64,000 nucleotides of DNA from Trissonchulus latispiculum (lineage: Eukaryota; Nematoda; Enoplea; Enoplida; Ironidae). Below the pieces are notes generated by a model. That model made no database searches and was not told the DNA's origin. It saw only the letters and a list, made by a program, of their open reading frames with translations. This document shows positions 2,356 through 64,000 of this stretch, piece after piece. The stretch covers positions 84,780 through 148,779 of the forward strand of contig JASAND010020687.1 of the NCBI GenBank assembly GCA_030248195.1, in the 5' to 3' direction. Position 1 is the first letter of the stretch; every line of letters begins with the position of its first letter. A program made the translations under genes and the position numbers.

Positions 2356-5300
2356 CTGAAGCAACAAAAGTTGCATAAATCAACATAGCATGTTGAACAG
2401 CCAGCACATATTATTGTGTTGTAATTGAAAATTAACCCTTTTATGCCCGCGGGGGCCATTTGGCATAAGTGGTGATTTTTGGCATTTCTTCTAAAGTGCA
2501 GACACCGGTTGCACAATGGCACTTTGATCACGTGCTCGTTTTTCTCGACACTCGCACTACAATATAGAGTAATAAGTTCAATAAGTGCTAACGAAATAAA
2601 TTCCCGGCTGCCCTTTGGCGGAATGGCTAATTCGGCAGTGTGCTATGTTTCTGTGTTTATTTTAAACGGTTCCAACATCGGTTCTAAGTAGTTGGCGACA
2701 AAGCCGTTCTACCGGCGATAGGGGAGAACATGCAGATTAAATTAACATATAGTTGATCCTGTCTCAGAATCAAGTCTTGCACGTAAAATAAATTTATTAG
2801 TTTTTTGCAATGATTTTTTGAATTTGAATGAATGCATTTTTTGCATTTTGGGTGCATCGGAGACCCAAAAATGCTGGATTCAAAAATGTACAGAATTAGA
2901 AAGATGTAGAGAATTTAATTCTCTATCGATTGTTGGTAGTCTCATCTCTCTAGGTGCTCTCAGTAGAAATGGCAGCCTAAGTGTAAAATTGGTCATTTTG
3001 AGCCGATTTCCCCAAGAAGACTTGGTCAGAAGAGGGTTAGTTAATGTCGAAACTACGCCTTAAATTCCCCACAAACCACCAACCTCCAATTCGGTATTTC
3101 TAGATTCTAACCGCTGCACTCTGTCCCGCAGTTCGGTCAGTTCCTGACGTTTCCGTTTACGATATCGCGTAACAGCAGCCCTAAATCAAAGAGCAAAGAA
3201 CTCTACAAAAAGATCTGTGGTAACTACGTAAGCACACATACGACATATAAACGTTGTTTATCAGATCGCTATTTGTAACGAATTTACGAGTACTTGGCAT
3301 TTATTTAATATTTACGAGTACTTGGCATTTTTTAGGATTTTCAAAGTGGGAGAAGGGGCTTCGCCCTAGGAAGGGGGGAAGTGGAAGGTTTCCGAAAAGT
3401 GGGGGAGACGAGCTCAAAGTACAAATACACCAAAATTTTTAGCGAAACATTCGCATTTTAAGGCAAAAAAGCAAAAAATAGCTGTATTTTTAAGCTTAAA
3501 ATGAACTTATAAGTCCATAAATTAGCTAACAATTGAGATTTGAAAATTTGACCTCAAAAACTTAATCTTCGACACTTTCGGGCGAACCCCAAAAAAGTAG
3601 GTGGGGGCTTGCCGAAAAGTGGGAGAGGCTCCGAAAAGTGGACAGGGAACCGAAAAGTGGGAGCCCCCACCCCTGCCCACTAAAAAACTGGCAGTACATA
3701 TAGTACACTACACAGTATTATGCCTAGCATATTATACTTCTAAAGTTTAGTAGATAACACTGGATACGTACACGTTCGCGTATACCTGTTGTAAGACTTA
3801 CGTACTTATTTCGCTCAGTCTTATCATAGAAGCACTGCTTGCGCCAGTTTGTCTGATTCGAGCCGGACCCGGTGGAAGAAGGACTGTCCAGAGAGGAACT
3901 CTTGGAGACGCTGGAGGCCACAACCTGATGATCGCCCGGATCTGAATTTCGCTGAGGAGGCAGCAGAATCGGACCCCGTCCATCCACAGCACGACTGGAG
4001 CCAGAAGACGTCCTTAACAAAAACAGTATGTAGACATTACGTAGGTATAATCGAAAATATGGGTTCAAATATATTATGTAGGTTAAAAAGATAACATAAA
4101 TTACAACAGTTTCAGGGTTCTGATCTGAACATAGGGAACCAAAACGTATAGACGGCAGAATGCATATCAGTCTTCTCGAGACTCAAAAGTCACAAATTGA
4201 AGTTACATTTTTGGTCTGCATCAAAGACAACTCAAAACAAAAAAATCAGCCTTCAACAATATAATGTCTAGGCACAGAGCATTATCTAAACAAAACGATT
4301 CAGAAAATATTATGTAAGTCCTTCAAGACTTTCAGAGTTCAAAAAACTAAGAAAAGAAAATTTAATCCTTCTAGACCACCCACAGGGTACGTACAGATTA
4401 GTGTTTCTGGACATGGTCTGAGAAATGCCTGAAGCATCCGTGCTTCCACCGAGATTAAAATCCGACGGAAAACATAATTGCAACGGAATGTTAATCTCTT
4501 GATTGCCAATCTTTAGGGAAACACTTAGCTTACGACCCGCACTAAAACAAAAGAGAAGATGGAAGAAACAAGGGACGTGGTATATAGATAGCTACATACA
4601 CACATAAAATGCAAGCACTTATTGTGGCATACTATTATGTAGTACGTAACCAAGAGTATAAGAGTAAGAAACTCTTATGTTGAAATACTGCAAGGTATGC
4701 TCAGTGCGTTAACTCGGGACCCTCCCCCGTTACTTCCGGGGGATCCCACTTTAATACACTAAATACACACTTTTATATAAACGCGTGCGCGCTCGCTGAT
4801 TCGCTATATTACAATCAGGCTTACGGTGGGCAATTTTTTTAGTTATTCTTATTAATTATAGCTTTAAGTACATAGCTTAATGCAATTAAAAACTAATTCA
4901 ACAACTTTGTAGCACTTTTCTGCTCTTTCGCATTATATAAAAATTGTTGCAGATTACATTTATTCGAATTTTTGTTTAAAAAACAATTTTTATAGAATTG
5001 GAAAGAGCAGAAAAAATGCCACATACTTGTCGAATTAATTTTTTAACTGCATTAAGCCAAGAGTACACAATAAGAGTGTGCCATTAGGCACACTCAGCGT
5101 TAACTGAGCAAAAACTATGCTCTGTTCGCGAACGACTGACTCACCCTCCGCTTTGTTTTTGCTCTGCTAATGTACTCTTGATTAAGCTAATTAAAGCTAT
5201 AATTAATATTACCTACCATAAGCCTAAGGATTTTCAGGAAATCAGAAAGTAGACACTCGTTTATACAGGAGCGTAGGCAGGGGAGGGCCAGAGGGGGAAT

Positions 5301-52473: not shown

Positions 52474-52985
52474 CATGTATGTATATGTGTATATGTGTGT
52501 ACAGTGTGAGCGATGTCACGAACGATGTCATGGCGGGACACATGTATGTATATGTGTATGTGTGTGTACAGTGTGAGCGATGTCACGAACGGTGTCATGG
52601 CGGGATACATGTATGTATATGTGTATATGTGTGTACAGTGTGAGCGATGTCACGAACGATGTCATGGCGGGATACATGTATGTATATGTGTATATGTGTG
52701 TACAGTGTGAGCGATGTCACGAACGACGTCATGGCGGGATACATGTATGTATATGTGTATATGTGTGTACAGTGTGAGCGATGTCACGAACGATGTCATG
52801 GCGGGATACATGTATGTATATGTGTATATGTGTGTACAGTGTGAGCGATGTCACGAACGATGTCATGGCGGGATACATGTATGTATATGTGTATATGTGT
52901 GTACAGTGTGAGCGATGTCACGAACGATGTCATGGCGGTACACATGTATGTATATGTGTATATGTGTGTACAGTGTGAGCGATAG
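52474..52985. repeat. 67-bp minisatellite, about 7.7 units
   Basis: Units of 67 bp ('catgtatgtatatgtgtata' ... 'gatgtcacgaacgatgtcatggcggga') with very few differences. Because 67 is not a multiple of three and no frame has a stop within three units, overlapping 65-codon frames appear every 67 bp; these are not genes. Confidence 0.95.
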
Positions 52986-53455
52986 TAGTAGGAAATTGCA
53001 GGAGCTGGCCCCTCATCAGTCAAAATATCCCCTTAATCCCATCAATCATCCTGATGAGGGGCTAGCTCCAGCAATTTGTTTCCGAGGTAGTAGGATTAAT
53101 CCATCTACTTCAGTATAGGTTTGTTTTCTTTCTCTATTTTAGGTATTAATGCCTGGCCCCGCATCAGTCTTTTATCCCCCTAAATCCCTTTTATCCGCCC
53201 CGCTGAGGGGCCAATTCCCGCAATTTGTTTTTGGGGTTATTGAGATTAATGCAGCAGGGTTTTTGGGATTAATCCGCAGCTCATCCAAATAATTTGGTAG
53301 AATTAGATTTTAGATTAATCTTTTATCTAAGGATCTAGGGATTAAGTCAGAGGAATATCCGCAGTTCAATTTTTTAACGGGATTAAGGATAAAAAGAGTC
53401 GACATTTTCTAAAAATAATAAATACAACGAGTAGTACTTGTAAACATATATTAAA
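52986..53455. repeat. probable left terminal region of the Polinton
   Basis: It lies between the minisatellite and the first Polinton gene. It contains repeated ggattaa/ttaatcc words (at least eight) and two related blocks 'tggcccc(t/g)catcagt' (53008, 53153), each followed by 'gaggggc.a.ctcc.gcaatttgttt'. Polinton ends often carry short internal repeats. The exact terminus and its inverted partner (beyond 64 kb) cannot be seen. Confidence 0.45.
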
Positions 53456-53976: not shown

Positions 53977-54678
53977 ATGGTCAGTAAGTGTACTTTTTGC
54001 AACTTGGAATTTACCGATATTATGGAACGGCGTAAACATGTTAGGAAGATCCACGCTAACAGACTATCCAGAACTTGTTGTGGTACTACTTTTAAAACAA
54101 TGCGTGAGAAGAGAAAACATGACAACACTGATCACTGGATATCACCCCTGAAACTAGTCAGAACTGACACTCAAACTGTTTATGGTACTGATTCCTCCAA
54201 AGACATTTCTGACAACACTTATTTTGTGGATGTTAACCACCACCCTTTAAGTAACTCATACCGCTGCAATTTTTCTTACGGTGGATATGTCTACAGATCT
54301 GTCGAACAGTTCTATCAGTCAGAGAAGGCAAAATATTTCGAAGATTGGAAATCTTTTGGCGATATTATTAATGCGTGGACTGCAAAATATGTCAAAGAAA
54401 GAGGGATGAACGTAATCGGTTACAACGAGACAGAATGGATGATGGTTGCAGAAAGAATTATGGAGCGTGGAGTTCGAGAAAAGATAAGACAAAATATTCA
54501 AATGGAAGAAGCGTTGCTATGTAGCGGTACCAAGAAAATAGTTGTGTTAAATGAACATGATAAGTTTTGGTCATGCGGTGCTGGAAATGTTAAAGACTGT
54601 GCTGGTGAAGGACAAAATAAGCTAGGAACTATATTAGAAAAGATTAGAGATGAACTTAGGAAAGAAGTGTGTGTTTAG
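53977..54678 (+). CDS. C2H2 zinc finger fused to NADAR domain (Polinton cargo)
   Basis: 233 residues. The N-terminus is a canonical C2H2 finger (C5, C8, H21, H26) followed by a degenerate second one (CC...H48, H53). From about residue 78 it is a NADAR (YbiA-like) domain: HHPLSNSYRCNF, the SVEQFYQSEKAKYF motif (E110), and near the end DKFWSCGAGN and GQNKLGTILEKIRDELR. Known family: NADAR proteins act on N-glycosidic bonds; some bacterial members remove ADP-ribose from guanine in DNA as antitoxins to DarT-type enzymes. Inference: the fingers may direct it to nucleic acid, and it may undo host ADP-ribosylation of element DNA or RNA. It is not part of the usual Polinton core. The start is the ATG just before the first finger. 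Confidence 0.85.
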   Translation: MVSKCTFCNLEFTDIMERRKHVRKIHANRLSRTCCGTTFKTMREKRKHDNTDHWISPLKLVRTDTQTVYGTDSSKDISDNTYFVDVNHHPLSNSYRCNFSYGGYVYRSVEQFYQSEKAKYFEDWKSFGDIINAWTAKYVKERGMNVIGYNETEWMMVAERIMERGVREKIRQNIQMEEALLCSGTKKIVVLNEHDKFWSCGAGNVKDCAGEGQNKLGTILEKIRDELRKEVCV

Positions 54679-54748: not shown

Positions 54749-55429
54749 ATGACACAAACCTTAGGTAAAGTTACAATGGGGAACCCCTCGAGTAAAGTAA
54801 TTCATACTCCATTTTTAAAGTTACAGCATCCATTCACATGCATAGTTGCTGCGCCAACTAAGGCTGGTAAAACGACATTTGTCACCAAGTTAATAAATTT
54901 TTCTGAACAAATGATTGACCCACCTCCGCAAAGAATAATATGGTGTTATTCTGAATGGCAATCAGCTTACGAAGATATGACACAAGTAGAATTTTTTCAA
55001 GGTATTCCTGATACCAAGGACTTAAAGACTGGGATACCTACACTTATTGTGTTTGATGATCTAATGACAGAAGTTCAAAACAACACAAAGCTAATTGAAT
55101 TGTTTACCCGGGGGTGTCACCATTGGTCATGCAGTGTAATTCACATTACGCAAGATATTTTCTTTGACAAAAAAAGAACGAGTCGTATTAATGCTCAATA
55201 CATTGTTCTAATGAAAAATCCTGCAGACAAGTTAACTCCTGTGAACATAGCAAAACAAATGTTTCCTGGTCGGGTTGAAGGCTTCATGAAAGCGTTTAAT
55301 CACGCTACAAATAAACCACATGGATATTTATTAATAGATTTAGATCAGAATACGCCTGAAGAATATAGACTCAGAAGTACCATATTTCCAGATGAGCCCA
55401 ACGGTGTTTATAAATTAAAAAATACATAA
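54749..55429 (+). CDS. Polinton genome-packaging ATPase (FtsK/HerA, A32-like)
   Basis: 226 residues. The Walker A variant is AAPTKAGKTT (residues 34-43) and Walker B is LIVFDDL near residue 107, followed by the sensor-like region with SVIHITQDIFF. This matches the A32-type packaging ATPases of Polintons and related viruses in length and order; they pump DNA into preformed capsids. It starts 70 bp after the NADAR gene, with an AATAAA between them (54717). No break is seen. Confidence 0.92.
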   Translation: MTQTLGKVTMGNPSSKVIHTPFLKLQHPFTCIVAAPTKAGKTTFVTKLINFSEQMIDPPPQRIIWCYSEWQSAYEDMTQVEFFQGIPDTKDLKTGIPTLIVFDDLMTEVQNNTKLIELFTRGCHHWSCSVIHITQDIFFDKKRTSRINAQYIVLMKNPADKLTPVNIAKQMFPGRVEGFMKAFNHATNKPHGYLLIDLDQNTPEEYRLRSTIFPDEPNGVYKLKNT

Positions 55430-55805: not shown

Positions 55806-56437
55806 TGGAGTATTCTATACTGGTTAGACCGGACTATTTTGAAAAACACGAAAAGGAAGTGGAAATGGATCTAAAACATTCAATGAAAAAGCGTAAATTT
55901 CCAGATGATGTCAAACTTGCCATGTACAGGCAAAATAACTATCATAGACGTCTGCTTAAGGAAAAAGGCCAAGAGATTCGTGTGAAACACCCAAACATTG
56001 AAGAACGTAAACCTGAAGCATCACAAACTATGCTAAACCCAATGATTGAGGCATTGCCCAAAAGACTGCAACCGATAGCAGAAAATTTGCTAGCTCATCT
56101 ACAGACAGTGACTGATTTCAAAGTTAATGAAAAGGGAGAGATTTCGTATAAGGGAAGGGAAGCACCTGGATCTCGAATTACAGACCTTATACATGATTTT
56201 GTAAGGAATCGTCCAACCAAAAGTCCTGCCGTTGGATTTCATCTTTTCACTGAGGTATTGCGTCATACTAATGTTCCTAGAGAGTTCATTGGTAATCCTG
56301 CCCGATGGCAATTAATAAAAGATCCCTATGCTACCCCAAGAAGACCAGCAGCTCAGCGACTTGAAGCACTACGTACAAGACACCTACAGTCTGGAACAGG
56401 ATTAGCCCTGAAAACATTGAAATGGAAGACACTTTAA
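55805..56437 (+). CDS. conserved Polinton protein of unknown function
   Basis: 210 residues from the ATG at 55805. Basic N-terminal third (KHSMKKRKFPDD), then a domain with PGSRITDLIHDFVRN, a Gly/Phe turn and NVPREFIGNP, a signature I associate with an uncharacterised protein often encoded next to the integrase in Polintons. It overlaps both neighbours (1 nt upstream, 16 nt into the integrase). No catalytic motif visible. Function unknown. Confidence 0.65.
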   Translation: MEYSILVRPDYFEKHEKEVEMDLKHSMKKRKFPDDVKLAMYRQNNYHRRLLKEKGQEIRVKHPNIEERKPEASQTMLNPMIEALPKRLQPIAENLLAHLQTVTDFKVNEKGEISYKGREAPGSRITDLIHDFVRNRPTKSPAVGFHLFTEVLRHTNVPREFIGNPARWQLIKDPYATPRRPAAQRLEALRTRHLQSGTGLALKTLKWKTL

Positions 56438-57498
56438 GTTACTATTTTTATGATCCGAATAGTCCAGTTGCGTATTCAGGTGAACGTAAATTGTATAGTT
56501 ATCTGAAAAATAAAATTAATGGTCTTAAGCTTACGGATATTAAGAAATGGTTGAAAAAGCAACATACTTACACCATACATAAGCCTATTCGCCGTAGATA
56601 TCCCCGGCGTCGTTATTTCGTTGACAATATTGATAAGTTGTGGCAGGTTGATCTTGCTGATATGACACGAATTGCTGATGACAACGATGGTAACAGATTC
56701 CTGCTAACCTGCATTGACGTATTTTCTAAGTATGCGTGGGTAGTCCCTGTTAAGTCGAAAACTGGAAAGGACATCTTTAGCGCCTTTAAAGAAATTTTAA
56801 AGTCTAATAGGAGCCCTGAGATGTTACAGTCAGATAGAGGAAAAGAATTTCAGAATGCACAATTTCAGAACCTACTCAAAATTAACAATATTCACTATTA
56901 TACGTGCGATAATCCAGATATCAAGTGCAGCATTGTTGAACGATTTAATAGGACAATAAAGACGAAACTTTGGAAGTACTTTACAAAGTCGAGAACCTAT
57001 AGATATGTGGATGTATTACAAAAATTTGTCGACGGATATAACCATAGCAAACACAGAAGTATTGGCATGACTCCATCGGACGCATCTGATCCAAATAATC
57101 ACTATGACGTGTACAGTAAACTGTATCCGGACCAACCTGTGCCACGGTCAAAACTTACAGTAGGAGACATTGTTAGAATAAGCAAAGCGAAGGGAATATT
57201 CGAGAAAGGGTATTTACCAAATTGGTCCGAAGAGCTATTCAAAATTGTAAAGGTTACGTCTAATGCATACCCTGTCATGTATCAGCTAACTGATTTGCAG
57301 GATGAAGCAATACAAGGCGGTTTCTATGAGCGAGAGCTCCAGACTGTGACGAAGCCTGATAGCTACTGGATAGAAAAAGTAATAAAAAGGCGGCGTCGCA
57401 AGGGAAAACAGGAATATTTCGTGAAGTGGTTGGGATATCCTGAAAAGTTTAACAGTTGGATAACGGAAGATGATGGATTTTTACCTACAGCTACCTAG
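56422..57498 (+). CDS. Polinton integrase (rve core, C-terminal chromodomain)
   Basis: 358 residues. A basic N-terminal arm (RRRYPRRRYF) leads into the DDE core, with D77 (WQVDLAD), D138 (LQSDRGKEF) and E173 (IVERFNR) all present and correctly spaced. The C-terminus is a chromodomain (YWIEKVIKRRRRKGKQEYFV, then KWLGYP...SWITEDD), which in other integrases steers insertion to modified histones. Known role: joining of element ends to host DNA, making a 5-6 bp target duplication. The last 29 nt overlap the penton gene. Intact in every catalytic position. Confidence 0.95.
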   Translation: MEDTLSYYFYDPNSPVAYSGERKLYSYLKNKINGLKLTDIKKWLKKQHTYTIHKPIRRRYPRRRYFVDNIDKLWQVDLADMTRIADDNDGNRFLLTCIDVFSKYAWVVPVKSKTGKDIFSAFKEILKSNRSPEMLQSDRGKEFQNAQFQNLLKINNIHYYTCDNPDIKCSIVERFNRTIKTKLWKYFTKSRTYRYVDVLQKFVDGYNHSKHRSIGMTPSDASDPNNHYDVYSKLYPDQPVPRSKLTVGDIVRISKAKGIFEKGYLPNWSEELFKIVKVTSNAYPVMYQLTDLQDEAIQGGFYERELQTVTKPDSYWIEKVIKRRRRKGKQEYFVKWLGYPEKFNSWITEDDGFLPTAT

Positions 57499-58288
57499 TA
57501 ACACTGGCGACTATTTAACAAATAAATTGAACGACTTTCGAGTGAAGCTACCGCATCGAATCGATCTCGACGGTGAATGGGAGGTAGCCCTTGTAGAACT
57601 GATGTATCCTGTGACATGGAATACTTTTAGAGAAGAAGTCAGTCCTGAAATCTATATAGCATTCTCTCATGGTACGTCAAAAACGAAATACCTACCGTTG
57701 CGATATTACACATCAATCGTAGAATTATGTGAAGCTATTAATCAAACGTTAAATACAATGACAAATCGAGAAGGCCAACCTCCAGGTGTGAAGGTTAAAT
57801 TTGATCAGTATACTCACCGAGTTAACATTATTTTCGAAAGGGAGAAAGGAAAGCCTTTTGATATTGTAGATCTAAAACTGGGTAGTCGACTTCAGTATAT
57901 ACTTGGGTTTGGAGAAGGAGACAATCTGAATCCTCAAGGTGTAATTGAAAGGGAGTCACCGACACATGTAAACAAGAAGGAGAAAGTTATCGTTGGTGGC
58001 GGAGAGCCCGATATGAAAGCTGGTTTTTATTCAATGTATGTATACTGTGACTTAGTTGCTCCTCAAATAGTAGGAAACACCATTGCTCCTCTGCTCCGAA
58101 TTGTAAATACTACAGGCATACACGGAGAATTTATTGATAAAGAGTATCTTAATCCTCACTATGTACCTGTACTTAAAAGAGAATTTGACTCCGTCGAAAT
58201 TAATATATATAATGACGCAGGACAGCCAGTTGATTTTGCTTACGGAAAAATTTATGCAAAGTTGCACTTTAGGAAGGTGAGACCATGA
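57470..58288 (+). CDS. Polinton minor capsid protein (penton, single jelly roll)
   Basis: 272 residues. FYLQLPSNTGDY at the N-terminus, DLDGEWEVALVELMYPVTW soon after, and a central LGFGEGD segment are the hallmark of the Polinton penton family, which forms the pentameric vertices of the icosahedral capsid. Begins inside the integrase gene and ends in an ATGA overlap with the next gene. Length is normal. Confidence 0.9.
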   Translation: MMDFYLQLPSNTGDYLTNKLNDFRVKLPHRIDLDGEWEVALVELMYPVTWNTFREEVSPEIYIAFSHGTSKTKYLPLRYYTSIVELCEAINQTLNTMTNREGQPPGVKVKFDQYTHRVNIIFEREKGKPFDIVDLKLGSRLQYILGFGEGDNLNPQGVIERESPTHVNKKEKVIVGGGEPDMKAGFYSMYVYCDLVAPQIVGNTIAPLLRIVNTTGIHGEFIDKEYLNPHYVPVLKREFDSVEINIYNDAGQPVDFAYGKIYAKLHFRKVRP

Positions 58289-58701
58289 GAACTGTCTACT
58301 ATCCTGAGCAAGTCAAAACGTGGGAAGACGTGTTACTGCAAACAGGTGGTGCTCTACCTACGTATGCAGGACACCCTTATCAAAGAGGAGAAGGAATCGG
58401 TAGTTTTTTTAAAGGACTGTTTCGAGCAATTTGGCCAACTGTCAGGAAAGTTGGCATTCATGTGGGAAAGGAAGCCCTTAGAACAGGCAGCGATGTGGCT
58501 AAAGATTATCTCAATAAGGGAGAAGACATAAAAACATCACTTAAAAAGCGCAGTAGGCAGGCAGTAGGGCGCACTCTGAGCAAATTTGGTGACGATTTGC
58601 AGCAAGAAGGTGAAGGTCTTGGCAGCAGATTAACACCGAAAAACATAAAAAGGATTAAAAAACGTCGGAAACTTAACACTGACGTATTCAGTCATGGCTA
58701 A
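58285..58701 (+). CDS. Polinton pVI-like minor virion protein
   Basis: 138 residues. An amphipathic segment GIGSFFKGLFRAIWPTVRKV at about 38-57, then GKEAL and a Lys/Arg-rich C-terminus (KRIKKRRKL). It is comparable to adenovirus protein VI-type factors that disrupt membranes during entry. QTGGA at 19-23 precedes the amphipathic helix and could be a cleavage site of the protease encoded downstream. Overlaps penton by 4 nt and capsid by 8 nt. Confidence 0.72.
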   Translation: MRTVYYPEQVKTWEDVLLQTGGALPTYAGHPYQRGEGIGSFFKGLFRAIWPTVRKVGIHVGKEALRTGSDVAKDYLNKGEDIKTSLKKRSRQAVGRTLSKFGDDLQQEGEGLGSRLTPKNIKRIKKRRKLNTDVFSHG

Positions 58702-60034
58702 GCAAGTGGATGCACAATCGTATCCTGGGTTTAAGAGCGAACTCGACCTATTTTCCCTTCCACCTAGTCAAGTTGCTATCGAAAAGGGCTATTGGGCAGA
58801 ATATTATCCTCAAAATCCTATAACAGACAGCGGTCCGTACAGGATACACATACCAAAAGACTCGTTTATGTTGGATTTAAATAAAAATTACCTGTATGTA
58901 CAAATAAAAATTGTGACCAAAGATGGCAATAATTTGCCGTATCCAACAAAACCTGATAACACTCCCGACCATGATAAGATCGATGTCGCCCCCATAAATT
59001 TAATAGGCTCAACCTTGTTTGAACGAGTAGTTATGAAGCTAAGTGACAAAGAAATTGAAAACACTGGTCCTCTGTACGCGTATAAGGCGTACCTGGAAGT
59101 TTTGCTAAATTATGGACGGGACGCTAAATCTAATCATCAACAAATCGCAATGTTTTATAAAGATAACCCACTGAAATTTGACGACTTAACTTCTGATGCA
59201 ATGAAGTGGAGAGGGAAACCATTTATCAAGAACAAAGGAGTTGAACTGCTAGCTCCATTGCACTGTGATTTATTTAAGCAGGACAGATACATGTTAAGCG
59301 ATACGGAGATGTCGATTGAACTTCATAGAAATGATGACAAATTTGTTTTAATGAGTGACGGTACGGAATATAAAATCAAGGTGGAAGATCTAAGATGGTA
59401 CGTCTGGAAGATCAAGCCACAAGAATCCCTCAGTTTGGCTATAGAAAATGTTCTACGCGGCAACCATGCAGCCAAGTATCCTATACGTCGAATAAAAATG
59501 GTGACTCGACATCTGGCCGCAAACTCACAGACTGTGGTGGAAAACTCCATTTTTTCTGGTCAACTCCCCAGACGAGTTGTTCTAGTAATGGTTGACTCAG
59601 AAGCGTTTAACGGATCATTTACGGCTAACCCTTTCAAGTTTGAAACCTGCAAAATCAGTGAATTATCACTAAAATGTGGAGATGAGTACATACCAAAGCA
59701 TCCAATGAGGATGGACTGGAGTGATTTCAAATATAGTGTACCCTACATGTACCTATTTGAAGGAATTAACATGGCCAATAACGATAAAGGGATTGATATT
59801 ACGTATGAAGATTTCACTGCTGGGTATACAATTTTTGTGTTCAATCTAACAGCAGATAACGTGGATGGAAGCGCAATGGAACTTATCCGGGAAGGAGATC
59901 TTTCACTCTATATGCAACTGAAAGAGCCACTTAGTAATCACTCACAAGGAGTAGAAATTATCATATATGGAGAATTTGACAACTTGATTTCCATCGACTT
60001 CAACAGGACTCCATTTTTTGATTATTCAATTTAA
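58694..60034 (+). CDS. Polinton major capsid protein (double jelly roll)
   Basis: 446 residues. ELDLFSLPPSQVAIEKGYW at the N-terminus, the PRRVVLVMVDSEAFNGSF segment near 290, and the terminal REGDLSLYMQLKEPLS ... IIIYGEFDNLISIDFNR are typical of Polinton double-jelly-roll capsid proteins, which trimerise into hexon-like capsomers. Full length with no break, so a capsid could in principle be made. Its TAA overlaps nothing; the next ATG follows after 11 bp with an AATAAA between. Confidence 0.95.
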   Translation: MAKQVDAQSYPGFKSELDLFSLPPSQVAIEKGYWAEYYPQNPITDSGPYRIHIPKDSFMLDLNKNYLYVQIKIVTKDGNNLPYPTKPDNTPDHDKIDVAPINLIGSTLFERVVMKLSDKEIENTGPLYAYKAYLEVLLNYGRDAKSNHQQIAMFYKDNPLKFDDLTSDAMKWRGKPFIKNKGVELLAPLHCDLFKQDRYMLSDTEMSIELHRNDDKFVLMSDGTEYKIKVEDLRWYVWKIKPQESLSLAIENVLRGNHAAKYPIRRIKMVTRHLAANSQTVVENSIFSGQLPRRVVLVMVDSEAFNGSFTANPFKFETCKISELSLKCGDEYIPKHPMRMDWSDFKYSVPYMYLFEGINMANNDKGIDITYEDFTAGYTIFVFNLTADNVDGSAMELIREGDLSLYMQLKEPLSNHSQGVEIIIYGEFDNLISIDFNRTPFFDYSI

Positions 60035-60045
60035 AGTTAATAAAT

Positions 60046-60465
60046 ATGTTATATCCAGGTTACCTTAATTATGTGCTCAAAATGCTAGGACTACTTTTAC
60101 TTGCTGTAACCGTCTCCACGGAACAGTTATACTACCAGGAAGAGAATCTAAATGTAACCGTCGTTGACGATAATGGGGCTATGAAAACTTTGATACTTCA
60201 ATTAGGAAATAAAAATGCTACGATAGAAAATGGAGACTACTTGTATAAAAGATTAGCACGATGTAATCTACACCTCTGCGTGGAAGGGATACAACGATGG
60301 ACACAACCAGGTTGTACCTACGTTGAGTGGGACCACTGCTGGGAATTTTGCTACGATGCCAATCGAAAATTAGTATACCTTCACTATAAAATGACAGATC
60401 TCAAAATTAATAAAAACAGTCATATGGAACTCGTCAGATGGGCACTAGAAGGTTACTATGAATAG
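60046..60465 (+). CDS. Polinton secreted or virion Cys-rich protein, unassigned
   Basis: 139 residues with a likely signal peptide (LGLLLLAVTVS at about 15-25). Two N-glycosylation motifs (NVT, NAT) and six Cys in the second half (CNLHLC, GCTYVEWDHCWEFC) suggest a secreted disulphide-bonded domain. It lies between capsid and protease and overlaps the protease by 8 nt. I recognise no family. Confidence 0.65.
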   Translation: MLYPGYLNYVLKMLGLLLLAVTVSTEQLYYQEENLNVTVVDDNGAMKTLILQLGNKNATIENGDYLYKRLARCNLHLCVEGIQRWTQPGCTYVEWDHCWEFCYDANRKLVYLHYKMTDLKINKNSHMELVRWALEGYYE

Positions 60466-60997
60466 TTTAGACTTAAGTCGAGTCGCCAACGCTGATCCAT
60501 ACCTGCGTAAAGTCTTTCTGGGTGTATTCCCTAGTGATCAGCTACCAACGGTGCAACGCAGACCGGCGTGTTTTATACTTAATACGGATCCATCGACAAA
60601 GTCTGGAGAGCACTGGCTTGCTATGTATTTTGACACTTATGTGGAGTACTTTGATAGTTATGGACTTGAGCCTATAGAGGCCTGTATGCGGTATAAACCG
60701 GAAAAAGTAAACAAATACTGTTTGCAAGACTTTGATACTAATGTTTGTGGTGAATTTTGTATATATTTTTTGAATAAAAGATCACGTGGCTATAGCTTCG
60801 AATCAATAATAGACTATTTAAGGAAGCGAGGCGATAAAAACGATACCATAGTTAAGAACTTTGTTTACTATTTATTCAGACCTTCATCACAGCAACAGTT
60901 ACTTACACAATATTGTCAATATTGTCGGTGTCGTAAAGATGCAAATAGTCAATGTAGTATTTTCGGGCAAATTCAGGGAAGGGATATCTCTTTGTGA
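60458..60997 (+). CDS. Polinton adenain-like cysteine protease
   Basis: 179 residues. H52 (GEHWLAMYF), D66 (EYFDSYG), Q90 and C97 (CLQDFDTNVCGEFC) give the catalytic set and oxyanion Gln of the adenovirus-protease family. Known role: cleavage of virion precursors during maturation. The C-terminal 35 residues are Cys/Gln-rich (QYCQYCRCRK) and unusual. Its last 59 nt overlap the TBP-like gene in another frame. Length is normal for the family. Confidence 0.92.
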   Translation: MNSLDLSRVANADPYLRKVFLGVFPSDQLPTVQRRPACFILNTDPSTKSGEHWLAMYFDTYVEYFDSYGLEPIEACMRYKPEKVNKYCLQDFDTNVCGEFCIYFLNKRSRGYSFESIIDYLRKRGDKNDTIVKNFVYYLFRPSSQQQLLTQYCQYCRCRKDANSQCSIFGQIQGRDISL

Positions 60998-61436
60998 GTT
61001 AGAGAACGCCGTCTACAATCCTCGAAGGTTCAGTGGTGCCATTTTAACGCAGAATGGGAGCACGTTTCTTCTTTTTTCTAATGGCAAATTTGTTTGTTTG
61101 GGATCCAAGTGTGTTGCCCAAGGAAGGAGGTCTATCGAAATGATGGGTGAACGTCTTGGCAGTGGTATTGGCCAGTGTCGTATTACCAATATAGTCAGCG
61201 CAGGTAAAACAGGATACGCAGTCAATCTTCATTCGTTGTACCAGTTAATAAGACGCTACAACCACACTGTTCACTACGAACCGGAACTTTTCAGTGGGAT
61301 TACTTGGAAGGATAACGGCGGCACTGTTAGACTTTTCCACAACGGCAAGTTTTTCGTAACGGGTGTGGTTGATGAAACCATTATTCCATCTATATTCGAT
61401 CATGTACAAAACCTGTGTCAATCTTCACGTAAATAA
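60939..61436 (+). CDS. TATA-binding-protein homologue encoded by the Polinton
   Basis: 165 residues from the ATG at 60939 (an upstream in-frame ATG at 60861 lies inside the protease and is less likely). Two pseudo-repeats match the TBP saddle. Repeat 1 is YNPRRFSGAI ... FLLFSNGKFVCLGSKC; repeat 2 is ITNIVSAGK ... YEPELFSGIT ... RLFHNGKFFVTG. The four Phe that wedge into the TATA minor groove in TBP are at F31, F46, F118 and F133. The length is close to the bare TBP core, with no N-terminal extension. Known role: nucleates RNA polymerase initiation at TATA promoters; giant viruses carry divergent TBPs. Inference: it lets the element drive its own promoters. TBP is not among the usual Polinton genes known to me. 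Confidence 0.9.
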   Translation: MQIVNVVFSGKFREGISLCELENAVYNPRRFSGAILTQNGSTFLLFSNGKFVCLGSKCVAQGRRSIEMMGERLGSGIGQCRITNIVSAGKTGYAVNLHSLYQLIRRYNHTVHYEPELFSGITWKDNGGTVRLFHNGKFFVTGVVDETIIPSIFDHVQNLCQSSRK

Positions 61437-61438
61437 TG

Positions 61439-61801
61439 TTAATCCGTCGGAAAAGCAGTCACAATCAAATGTCTTTGACGATTGTAAACGACGACGACTC
61501 GGCTGACGCGTTTTTTCGTATAACCGCGGATTCCAATAGGATTATCAAACATCTTACGGAATATAATGGTTCTTCTTGGATGGCGAATAATGACTTCGTC
61601 AGGATCTGTACAGCATTGTTCCAATAATTTCATAACTTTGGAATCCATTTCAATAAATCTGGACGCTAATTTGTCCTCAGTATCTACACCATGTTTAACA
61701 AATAAATGATGATGAATAGTTACAGTAGCAAATGATTTACGAAAGACATTATTATTAATTATAGAAAATGGACCCAGACTATTTTCATCCGTAACATTCA
61801 T
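61439..61801 (-). CDS. small Polinton protein downstream of PolB, unassigned
   Basis: 120 residues from the ATG at 61801 (a non-ATG start 6 codons earlier is possible). It is 30 nt downstream of the PolB stop on the same strand and ends 2 nt from the TBP-like gene, so the two gene blocks converge here. The C-terminus reads RGYTKKRVSRVVVVYNRQRH followed by LIVTAFP, resembling the last strands of small BECR-fold RNases, and HHH lies near residue 30. That likeness is weak. The opposite-strand frame 61436-61627 is shorter and is treated as its shadow. Confidence 0.45.
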   Translation of the reverse strand: MNVTDENSLGPFSIINNNVFRKSFATVTIHHHLFVKHGVDTEDKLASRFIEMDSKVMKLLEQCCTDPDEVIIRHPRRTIIFRKMFDNPIGIRGYTKKRVSRVVVVYNRQRHLIVTAFPTD

Positions 61802-61830
61802 AACCCTAAAGATATACAATCAGTATTAAT

Positions 61831-64000
61831 TCAACAATCAGACATAATATCACAGTGGCCATACGCCATGGTTGATTCTGCATCAAAAAGAATATATCGT
61901 TTGTCATCAAAACCAGACAAACTTGACTTGTTTTGTAATACAGTATGTACAACAGAACCTTCACTGCGGATAAATTGCATTGGATGTTTAAGTCGCACTC
62001 CCTCGAACAGAACTGATTTGTACATTACATGTTTGATACTACGTGTAACGACGGACTTCTTCACACCCTTTGCTCGCTTTTTCTCCTTTCCCTGAGAGTC
62101 CAAAATACTATACATTTTTGCTCTCAGCCCCACAAACTCTGAAATAGGAACAGAACTCATTTCATCCTTAAATTTTCCCATAACTTTTTTATTCGAATCA
62201 GAAAACGCAAAATGACCTTTCGGATAATCAGAAAAATCAAATAAATGATCATCCCGTACCATATCTTCATATATATCCTGTGTTACAATGTGGTAACATA
62301 AACTGTCAGTATCGGTGAATAACAACTTTGCTTCATTACGGTATTGTGCCTTTATATAATTGTAGTGAAAATCATACATTAAATATTTTGACAAGTCTAA
62401 TACTGTAAATCCAACATATATAGGTTTACATAGTTTAGTTACAGATCTTCGCATTTTCACAGCAAAAAGAGAGTCAGAAACTAACTTAAATCCTCTGTAC
62501 TGAGTTTTACAGGTTAGCTTTAGTAGTTTGTCTTCGGAACAAACAAGTTTTATGTCTATGTATTTCCGAACGTTTTCCATCGTTTTCCCGAACACACTGT
62601 TATTGAACAGCTTGAACAAATCTTTCTCAAACGCACTCGTAGCCTTTTTTCGCATTTCTGTATTGAACATGATATAAGGTGCCAACCATGACTCCTGAGT
62701 AAACGCCAACACCCGATGAATCTTTTTCAATTTTAGTCCCAAATCCAAATATAACTTGAGATTACGGTAATGTACGGTATATAGTTTCTTATTGAAGAGA
62801 TTAGGTACCAATTTTCGAGAGTTGACACTGCACACTTTTATCTGATCTTTGAGTTGGACACAATACGGGGATAGCATCTCGTCAGTGATTTCAAGTTTCT
62901 CAGCAGCGACTGGATAGTCGTTATGAGTGTCGTGTAGTTCATCTGGATAATCTAGATCAACTTCCAAAATGTATCCCTCTGAATCGCTGTCAGAAATGTT
63001 CAGTACATTAAACGACTGGATCTCCTTGTCCGTCATCCATCGAAAGTTTCCAACGGGTAATTTCTGTGTCATTGTCCAGCCATAAAGATTATTGGCGTCT
63101 AAGTAGATAATATAGCTGGAAGGTTTGGATGGGTCATAATCGTTCAATAGAGGATTATTAGCCTTTGCATAACGGTGAGTTATTGTTGATACACCTCCGC
63201 GAATTCCACTTTCCATAAACGTATACATGTCTGGGTCAGTAAATAGTTCTAATTTGACGTCCGTGAACTTTAGCGCAGCATCCCATGAAAATGACGGCGC
63301 AGTATAATACTGGGCAGGATCTAACTGATAGTTTAACATACAAAAGTTTCTAAAGTTTTCGAAAACATCGCTCAATAGCAACACGTCACTAATGAGATAC
63401 AGATCGTGGTATTCTCCCAGCGACTTAACATTGAAAGTTTTCCATACCATCTTAGCATGGCTATAGTCTTCTTCGGTAATTGAAGAATCGGTTAAAGTGG
63501 AATAAAAACTGTTTATCGGAGGTAGCTCCTGTTCATCAAATCTTTGCCAGGAATCCATGTACTCGTATGGGTATACTCCTTTTCGCAGCATCAAAGGAGT
63601 GTCAGCTTTGAAATATTCGGCAGTGTATCTAAATTTATCGCTGCCCTTATCAGATAGACTTTTAACCAGCTGATCCAAGGAGGTATTCAGAAACTGTAAA
63701 CTGTCGATAAAACGAAGATTCCAGCGAGTATTTAAATGTTTAAACTTCAAAGAGAATGTAAGGTAATCATCATATCCTTTTGGGATTACATTGATTTCAC
63801 ATCCCATTTTGGACGCAATTGTCCCCAGCTGTTCCAGTAGCAAATGTCCGTCGTATCTGCGCAAATTGTGGAAAACTACAGTTACCGTACGCATCAGCCG
63901 AAAAGATAAATTGCACTCTGGATGTGCAGCACCTCTGTATTGTCCACACAAGTGACAGTGATCCCAAACTCTATCTTCTCCCAAATCTTTCTTGCATATG
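61831..64000 (-). CDS. Polinton protein-primed DNA polymerase B (N-terminal part beyond window)
   Basis: At least 720 codons, open to the window edge and continuing past it. In order: a Cys/His cluster (DHCHLCGQYRGAAHPECN) like endonuclease VII, ExoII (FHNLRRYDG), ExoIII (LYLISDVLLLSDVF), palm motif A (YLDANNLYG), motif B ([18 protein letters not shown]), motif C (LLFTDTDSLCY) and a C-terminal DDKRY. All catalytic acids visible are kept. Known role: replication from a terminal protein primer, with 3'-5' proofreading. The ExoI motif and N-terminal domain lie beyond 64 kb. It is clearly homologous to the decayed polymerase at 34-37.5 kb, but not a recent copy. Confidence 0.95.
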   Translation of the reverse strand, partial: ICKKDLGEDRVWDHCHLCGQYRGAAHPECNLSFRLMRTVTVVFHNLRRYDGHLLLEQLGTIASKMGCEINVIPKGYDDYLTFSLKFKHLNTRWNLRFIDSLQFLNTSLDQLVKSLSDKGSDKFRYTAEYFKADTPLMLRKGVYPYEYMDSWQRFDEQELPPINSFYSTLTDSSITEEDYSHAKMVWKTFNVKSLGEYHDLYLISDVLLLSDVFENFRNFCMLNYQLDPAQYYTAPSFSWDAALKFTDVKLELFTDPDMYTFMESGIRGGVSTITHRYAKANNPLLNDYDPSKPSSYIIYLDANNLYGWTMTQKLPVGNFRWMTDKEIQSFNVLNISDSDSEGYILEVDLDYPDELHDTHNDYPVAAEKLEITDEMLSPYCVQLKDQIKVCSVNSRKLVPNLFNKKLYTVHYRNLKLYLDLGLKLKKIHRVLAFTQESWLAPYIMFNTEMRKKATSAFEKDLFKLFNNSVFGKTMENVRKYIDIKLVCSEDKLLKLTCKTQYRGFKLVSDSLFAVKMRRSVTKLCKPIYVGFTVLDLSKYLMYDFHYNYIKAQYRNEAKLLFTDTDSLCYHIVTQDIYEDMVRDDHLFDFSDYPKGHFAFSDSNKKVMGKFKDEMSSVPISEFVGLRAKMYSILDSQGKEKKRAKGVKKSVVTRSIKHVMYKSVLFEGVRLKHPMQFIRSEGSVVHTVLQNKSSLSGFDDKRYILFDAESTMAYGHCDIMSDC

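Follow-up and report, generated by a model that had tools for sequence, protein, structure and literature searches.

A TATA-binding protein encoded by a Polinton/adintovirus-type element in the nematode Trissonchulus latispiculum

A stretch of 64,000 nucleotides from the nematode Trissonchulus latispiculum (assembly GCA_030248195.1, contig JASAND010020687.1, positions 84,780 to 148,779), hereafter the window, contains an element of the Polinton/adintovirus type which encodes its own TATA-binding protein (TBP). The assignment is supported by the sequence and predicted fold of the protein, and its ownership by the element is backed by the element genes around it, by their linkage across the genome and by a tree test. 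An earlier note, made from the sequence alone, had proposed both the identity of the gene and this ownership.

Results

The TBP gene is located at 60939..61436 on the forward strand, from an ATG at 60939 to a stop codon ending at 61436, and encodes a protein of 165 amino acids with two lobes. In Pfam the family PF00352 was identified with an E value of 1.4e-24 and 86.2 bits, the cut-off being 22.9, in two stretches corresponding to both lobes, and the second-ranked match had an E value of 0.1. The archaeal TBP models of NCBIfam gave at best 8.3e-20, far under their own cut-offs. The sequence search against PDB gave a best E value of 3.3e-12, with 35 of 39 matches being TBP or TBP fusions and the remaining four at 0.26 or higher, and the best match in PHROGs had an E value of 0.23. 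The structure model and the fold comparison predict a two-fold saddle, so that the profile search and the structure model, proposed earlier as checks, were both passed. Among predicted viral structures the model matches the TBP-like protein of Heterosigma akashiwo virus 01 and others. Foldseek ranks human TBP from a Brf2 complex first (4rod_B, E 4.6e-14), which could speak for a protein that uses Brf1/Brf2 or another adaptor and RNA polymerase III, and not TFIIB and polymerase II. TBP from polymerase II complexes is equally close to the model, though, and the genes of the element are protein-coding, which would be ordinary work for polymerase II; this alternative is considered improbable.

Residues were compared in an alignment of 36 TBPs. 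The two pseudo-repeats, the NPRRF, FSNGKFVCLGSK and YEPELF landmarks and the four phenylalanines described in the earlier note were all confirmed, with F31, F46, F118 and F133 placed at the DNA-kinking positions of human and archaeal TBP. N5 and N84 (both central Asn positions), E114 and E116 are identical to human TBP, and the last two probably correspond to the TFIIB-contact positions C.L3.2 and C.L3.4 of PMC7221094, a match made in this analysis. The saddle, the kinking Phe, the Asn pair and the acidic TFIIB contacts are thus shared with cellular TBP, the archaeal protein and eukaryotic subunit of TFIID and TFIIIB. The window TBP differs from it in being encoded by a mobile element, in a short first helix, in the absence of the N-terminal extension, in hairpins two residues shorter (the kinking Phe are spaced at 15/15, those of the host, human and two archaeal reference TBPs at 17/17) and in S119, a C-lobe position after the third kinking Phe where human TBP has Pro. 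Work on Kaposi's sarcoma-associated herpesvirus (KSHV) ties this Pro to thymine preference (PMC12529657). Identity to the host, human and two archaeal TBPs is 27-29%.

The element genes identified around the TBP gene are the following.

60458..60997, forward strand: protease of adenain type (PF00770, E 2.4e-4, 21.3 bits, equal to the cut-off), overlapping the TBP gene by 59 nt
61439..61819, reverse strand: X6, a small open reading frame convergent with the TBP gene, with weak likeness to PBECR2 nucleases (PF18810, E 0.0029, under the cut-off)
61831..63999, reverse strand: PolB-like gene, an open frame extending past the window end
58694..60034, forward strand: major capsid protein-like gene (PF21738, double jelly roll, E 5.9e-4, under the cut-off)
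60046..60465, forward strand: X5, an open frame between capsid and protease, no Pfam match over the cut-off
57470..58288, forward strand: minor capsid or penton-like gene, no Pfam match; homologues adjoin the integrase in the group B copies described below
56422..57498, forward strand: integrase with C-terminal chromodomain (PF00665, E 1.7e-14; PF00385, E 2.7e-9)
54749..55429, forward strand: packaging ATPase-like gene (PF02456, E 0.0056, under the cut-off); homologues lie near TBP in other copies
53977..54678, forward strand: C2H2 finger and NADAR gene (NADAR, PF08719, E 1.7e-28, over the cut-off; finger, E 0.035, under it)
52985..53440, no strand: probable left element end, with inverted and direct repeats after a minisatellite; the opposite end is outside the window

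Presumably 57470..58288 is a penton or minor capsid gene, a name suggested by its position, and 61831..63999 is taken to be PolB from motifs that we recognised. The latter, whose frame is cut by the window end, has no Pfam polymerase match and scores 631 bits against a frame adjoining an rve integrase in an IMG/VR contig (L010). An rve integrase with a C-terminal chromodomain is a criterion for Polintons and adintoviruses according to PMC11071296, and the adenain-type protease is likewise shared with Polinton/Maverick elements and adintoviruses; the capsid-like and ATPase-like genes, with Pfam matches under the cut-off, may be further shared parts. The 67-bp minisatellite (about 52474-52983) stops exactly at the apparent start of the element. 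The overlap of 59 nt between TBP and protease genes, claimed earlier, is confirmed by the end of the protease frame at 60997. The gene adjoins the protease as stated, but it is the last gene of the rightward block and does not lie inside the capsid/protease block; its placement between protease and PolB also holds, with the small leftward frame at 61439-61819 separating it from PolB.

The whole genome was searched (733.8 Mb, 21,732 contigs), scoring the best 150 of 1271 candidates for the TBP family and the best 150 of 918 for the window protein. The merged TBP loci are at least 288, two being exons of the exon-split host gene on contig C14517, which leaves at least 286 non-host loci; some of these are interrupted by stops or lack an end, and element neighbours were checked for part of them. 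Among the best 150 of 918, 98 rows have a protease within 1.5 kb, directly upstream on the same strand in 97 (gap of -56 to +69) and on the opposite strand at 701 in the remaining one. The protease is present beside 31 of the 33 closest TBP rows. Chance alone would give about 0.001 such neighbours per row. Among the matches listed (the best 150 protease rows and at least 95 capsid rows), a capsid row lies within 4 kb of 70 of these 150 TBP rows, and protease or capsid beside 104. Seen from the neighbours, 25 of 95 capsid rows have no listed TBP row within 4 kb and 52 of 150 protease rows have none; the sole one of the latter that was opened, on C11396, has a TBP frame right behind the protease. 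X6 is a conserved small protein: in 98 of 150 X6 rows, of which some genes give several, a TBP row lies no more than 1 kb away and always on the opposite strand, the two genes converging in 45 cases and diverging in 53.

In protein searches six close relatives were identified (P0001, P0002 and P0008-P0011), with 35-49% identity to the window TBP. P0001 is located on a contig of 1690 bases from the source 'lgn', and a protease, P0039, 56% identical to that of the window, is on a contig of equal length from this source. We infer, short of proof, that the two contigs are one, which would put a protease-TBP pair in another element. In the IMG/VR and GTDB contigs the TBP, capsid and PolB queries found no relative. 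A search with a PolB motif pattern yielded 10 contigs; no TBP frame was present in the contig DNA examined, and only L010 matched element genes (phmmer). The association of TBP with such elements outside this genome rests on the protein matches and one inferred contig because the contig searches found no relative.

The maximum likelihood tree comprises 32 rows; the near copies A_L021, P0006, P0021 and B_L031 and the fragment P0011 were left out, the N-terminal tails of P0004, P0012 and P0033 were trimmed, and most fetched copies were not entered. The window TBP clusters with P0001, P0002, P0008 and P0009 (support 99/97) and the host TBP with human TBP and three further eukaryotic-type TBPs (100/98). 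A single clade of all element TBPs and close metagenome TBPs is neither rejected nor shown (p-AU 0.18), and a joint placement of all of these with eukaryotic TBP lies at the limit of rejection (p-AU 0.049). A recently captured host gene or retrocopy with no function in the element, for which the host gene on C14517 is a possible source, has next to no probability: the window and host TBPs are 29% identical, against 86% between host exons and human TBP, their grouping is rejected (p-AU 2.5e-69), and the protease neighbour is the same in the 97 relatives mentioned. The tree test, of a kind proposed in the earlier note, and the protease linkage rule out both a retrocopy and a captured neighbour.

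Nineteen non-host TBP loci were opened, the nine best-ranked and ten chosen ones, a non-random sample. Core genes (integrase, ATPase, capsid or PolB) are present in the fetched stretch at 17 of them, the exceptions being L031, with only X6 and an X1-like frame, and L033, with only TBP. Three further gene orders were identified. In group A (8 loci) the integrase precedes TBP, immediately in seven loci and at a distance of 1.1 kb in L020. Group B, which has 7 loci and to which L033 is assigned by its sequence, has TBP divergent from X6. Group C (3 loci) has TBP following, overlapping or fused to NADAR, split between frames in L025. The Phe-Phe spacing is window-like in groups B (15/15) and C (14/16) and not in group A (19/16). 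The Pro after the third Phe is replaced in 9 of 11 aligned element TBP rows and kept by group C. Within groups A-C, over the first 150 codons, the ratio of nonsynonymous to synonymous substitution (dN/dS) is 0-0.25 for 32 of the 35 pairs compared, three pairs being saturated and a fourth nearly so, and the gene is therefore constrained by purifying selection in these groups.

Two frames hold TBP together with another part. In L038 (4864-5847, reverse strand) a single frame of 328 amino acids contains NADAR and TBP, both over the Pfam cut-off, and in L037 (4904-6124, forward strand) the TBP frame runs on for 407 amino acids with no stop into a tail that we take to be penton-like. Such fusions, and the frequent position of TBP beside capsid, protease, integrase or NADAR genes in the loci examined, would suit a protein that bends DNA in an architectural role, during replication, packaging or integration, and is no transcription factor. 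Under that reading there is no obvious reason for the TFIIB-contact acids to persist, and it is judged very unlikely.

NADAR genes are recurrent in several of these Polinton lineages (window 53977-54678; L024:9511-9999; L028:4233-4703). The group A element L024 also encodes, at 2621-3157 on the forward strand, a CARD domain protein (PF00619, E 3.7e-7), possibly an immune-signalling mimic.

The TBP is more divergent than its protease and capsid neighbours. Among the matches listed, 64 elements have TBP, protease and capsid rows together, and in 62 of them the TBP is less identical to that of the window than the protease is, as it is relative to the capsid in 62 of the 64. At about 80% capsid identity (45 elements) the median identity is 44 for TBP and 62 for protease. 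The element on C18357, the one read in detail, is 97% identical to the window in capsid, 92% in protease and 65% in TBP; its DNA identity is 0.88-0.97 through the protease, 0.45-0.78 in TBP and 0.57-0.87 in X6, followed by blocks of 0.84, 0.88 and 0.71, so that the right border is not sharp. In this pair the protease has a dS of 0.21 and a dN/dS of 0.10, X6 has a dS of 0.69 and the TBP dS is saturated. High silent divergence in TBP beside low divergence in the protease points to replacement by recombination, and not to positive selection. The TBP may be conceived as an exchangeable promoter-specificity cassette of Polintons, in each lineage fitted to the element's own core promoters and linked to host TFIIB and polymerase with neither a viral TFIIB nor a viral polymerase, the TBP-X6 block, placed where the two transcription units meet, being swapped between elements by recombination and insulating co-resident elements; this is offered as a tentative idea which we hold to be possible and rather doubtful.

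Discussion

TBP homologues are known from giant viruses, as the earlier note said and as PMC7221094 and PMC12085832 agree, and the TBP-like proteins of giant viruses and mirusviruses are likewise virus-encoded, but their carriers are large viruses. TBP is present in 59% of mirusvirus genomes (PMC10132985), and algal elements with a putative mirusvirus origin carry it sporadically (PMC10675990). With the exception of poxviruses, nearly every virus that has a TBP is reported to encode a TFIIB-like protein too, and viral TBPs often lose the TFIIB contacts (PMC7221094); one giant virus has a TBP and two TFIIBs (PMC12085832). In contrast to this pairing, the element has no detected TFIIB family in Pfam and its TBP in the window keeps the contacts. 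The vTBP of beta- and gammaherpesviruses, ORF24 of KSHV, is a viral mimic of TBP which requires its four Phe and works with host RNA polymerase II (PMC12529657). ORF24 contains additional domains, is devoid of the TFIIB-contact acids and uses an extra C-terminal DNA-binding part, whereas the window protein is a bare TBP core of 165 amino acids with the acids present.

TBP is not mentioned in the available portions of four Polinton and adintovirus texts (PMC11071308, PMC11071296, PMC10120064 and PMC12220804). In PMC10675990, PMC10132985, PMC7786948, PMC11464507, PMC12085832, PMC12220804 and PMC11640650, as far as available, the TBP mentioned is that of a giant virus, a mirusvirus or the host, or else 'TATA' denotes a primer or a name. 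No description of TBP in a Polinton or adintovirus was found among the papers listed in the literature searched, which is in line with the earlier note, whose author knew of no TBP in the standard Polinton gene set; subscription papers and most preprints were beyond its scope and may contain one.

The role that we favour, and consider fairly probable, is that of a small element-specific initiation factor, less subject to the control exerted on host TBP. The element would be expressed in the nucleus, where its TBP would bind the A+T-rich core promoters of the element, bend the promoter DNA and recruit host TFIIB, or a Brf-type relative, together with host RNA polymerase; we infer this DNA binding and recruitment of host machinery. 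The basic patch of the TBP N-lobe binds TFIIA, TAF1, Mot1 and Brf. The short hairpins, the missing N-terminal extension and the Ser in place of Pro may concern host regulation or promoter choice and, since these parts are altered, the protein would act less under the control of host TBP.

TFIIB families were identified neither in the 14 window proteins scanned nor in 20 proteins of other copies (Pfam). Genome-wide, PF00382 has one match and PF08271 three, and a comparison by eye showed no TBP row on any of their contigs; one PF08271 match shares its contig with the PF00382 match, and this pair is therefore probably the host TFIIB gene. Use of host TFIIB or Brf is the simplest reading because no TFIIB of its own was detected while the acidic contacts are kept.

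The same contacts, kept while other parts changed, would also fit a competitor that sits on host promoters or sequesters TFIIB, TAFs or Mot1, damping host transcription, perhaps with the nuclease-like X6, which lies on the opposite strand beside TBP in the 98 of 150 X6 rows and in two relative orientations. The host would pay a high price for a dominant shut-off factor present hundreds of times in its genome, the nuclease assignment of X6 is weak (E 0.0029), and its structure model is unusable (pLDDT 48.6); such a competitor is unlikely.

Several points count against an element-specific initiation factor. The absence of TFIIB is weak evidence, as Pfam also misses the PolB of the element, a divergent viral TFIIB could escape, and host TFIIB itself was detected as single exons only. 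TATA-type motifs upstream of 13 element genes of the window, which the earlier note expected to be shared, have no convincing enrichment: TATAWAW is present in 3 of 13 (1.1 expected, P 0.09) and TATWWAW in 6 of 13 (2.4 expected, P 0.017, the best of seven patterns), with the start of X6 set 3 bases off in this search. The third Phe is Tyr or Leu in 3 of 5 group A rows, the first TFIIB contact is Lys in one group A row and Thr in both group C rows, and the N-lobe of group A is not shortened (hairpins of 19 and 16 residues). In the window's own pair the saturated dS leaves dN/dS not computable.

The diverged group A copies L022 and L024 both have a TATATAA upstream of TBP, about 50-60 nt before its start and near the integrase end. 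The same motif precedes the ATPase in one group B copy, the control sets being too small for meaningful P values.

Conclusions

The TBP of this element is real, conserved and element-owned, and it differs from the known virus-encoded TBPs in its small integrating carrier, its apparently missing TFIIB partner, its copy number and its likely exchange as a cassette. TBP is known from cells and large DNA viruses, and here a small integrating element carries it, with hundreds of copies in a single genome. If functional, it would let these elements choose the start sites of the host polymerase, apparently bringing neither a polymerase nor a TFIIB. The nematode would then offer a system to test the re-targeting of TBP, the control of Polinton genes and the response of a host, whose own TBP is very conserved, to foreign TBPs in their hundreds.
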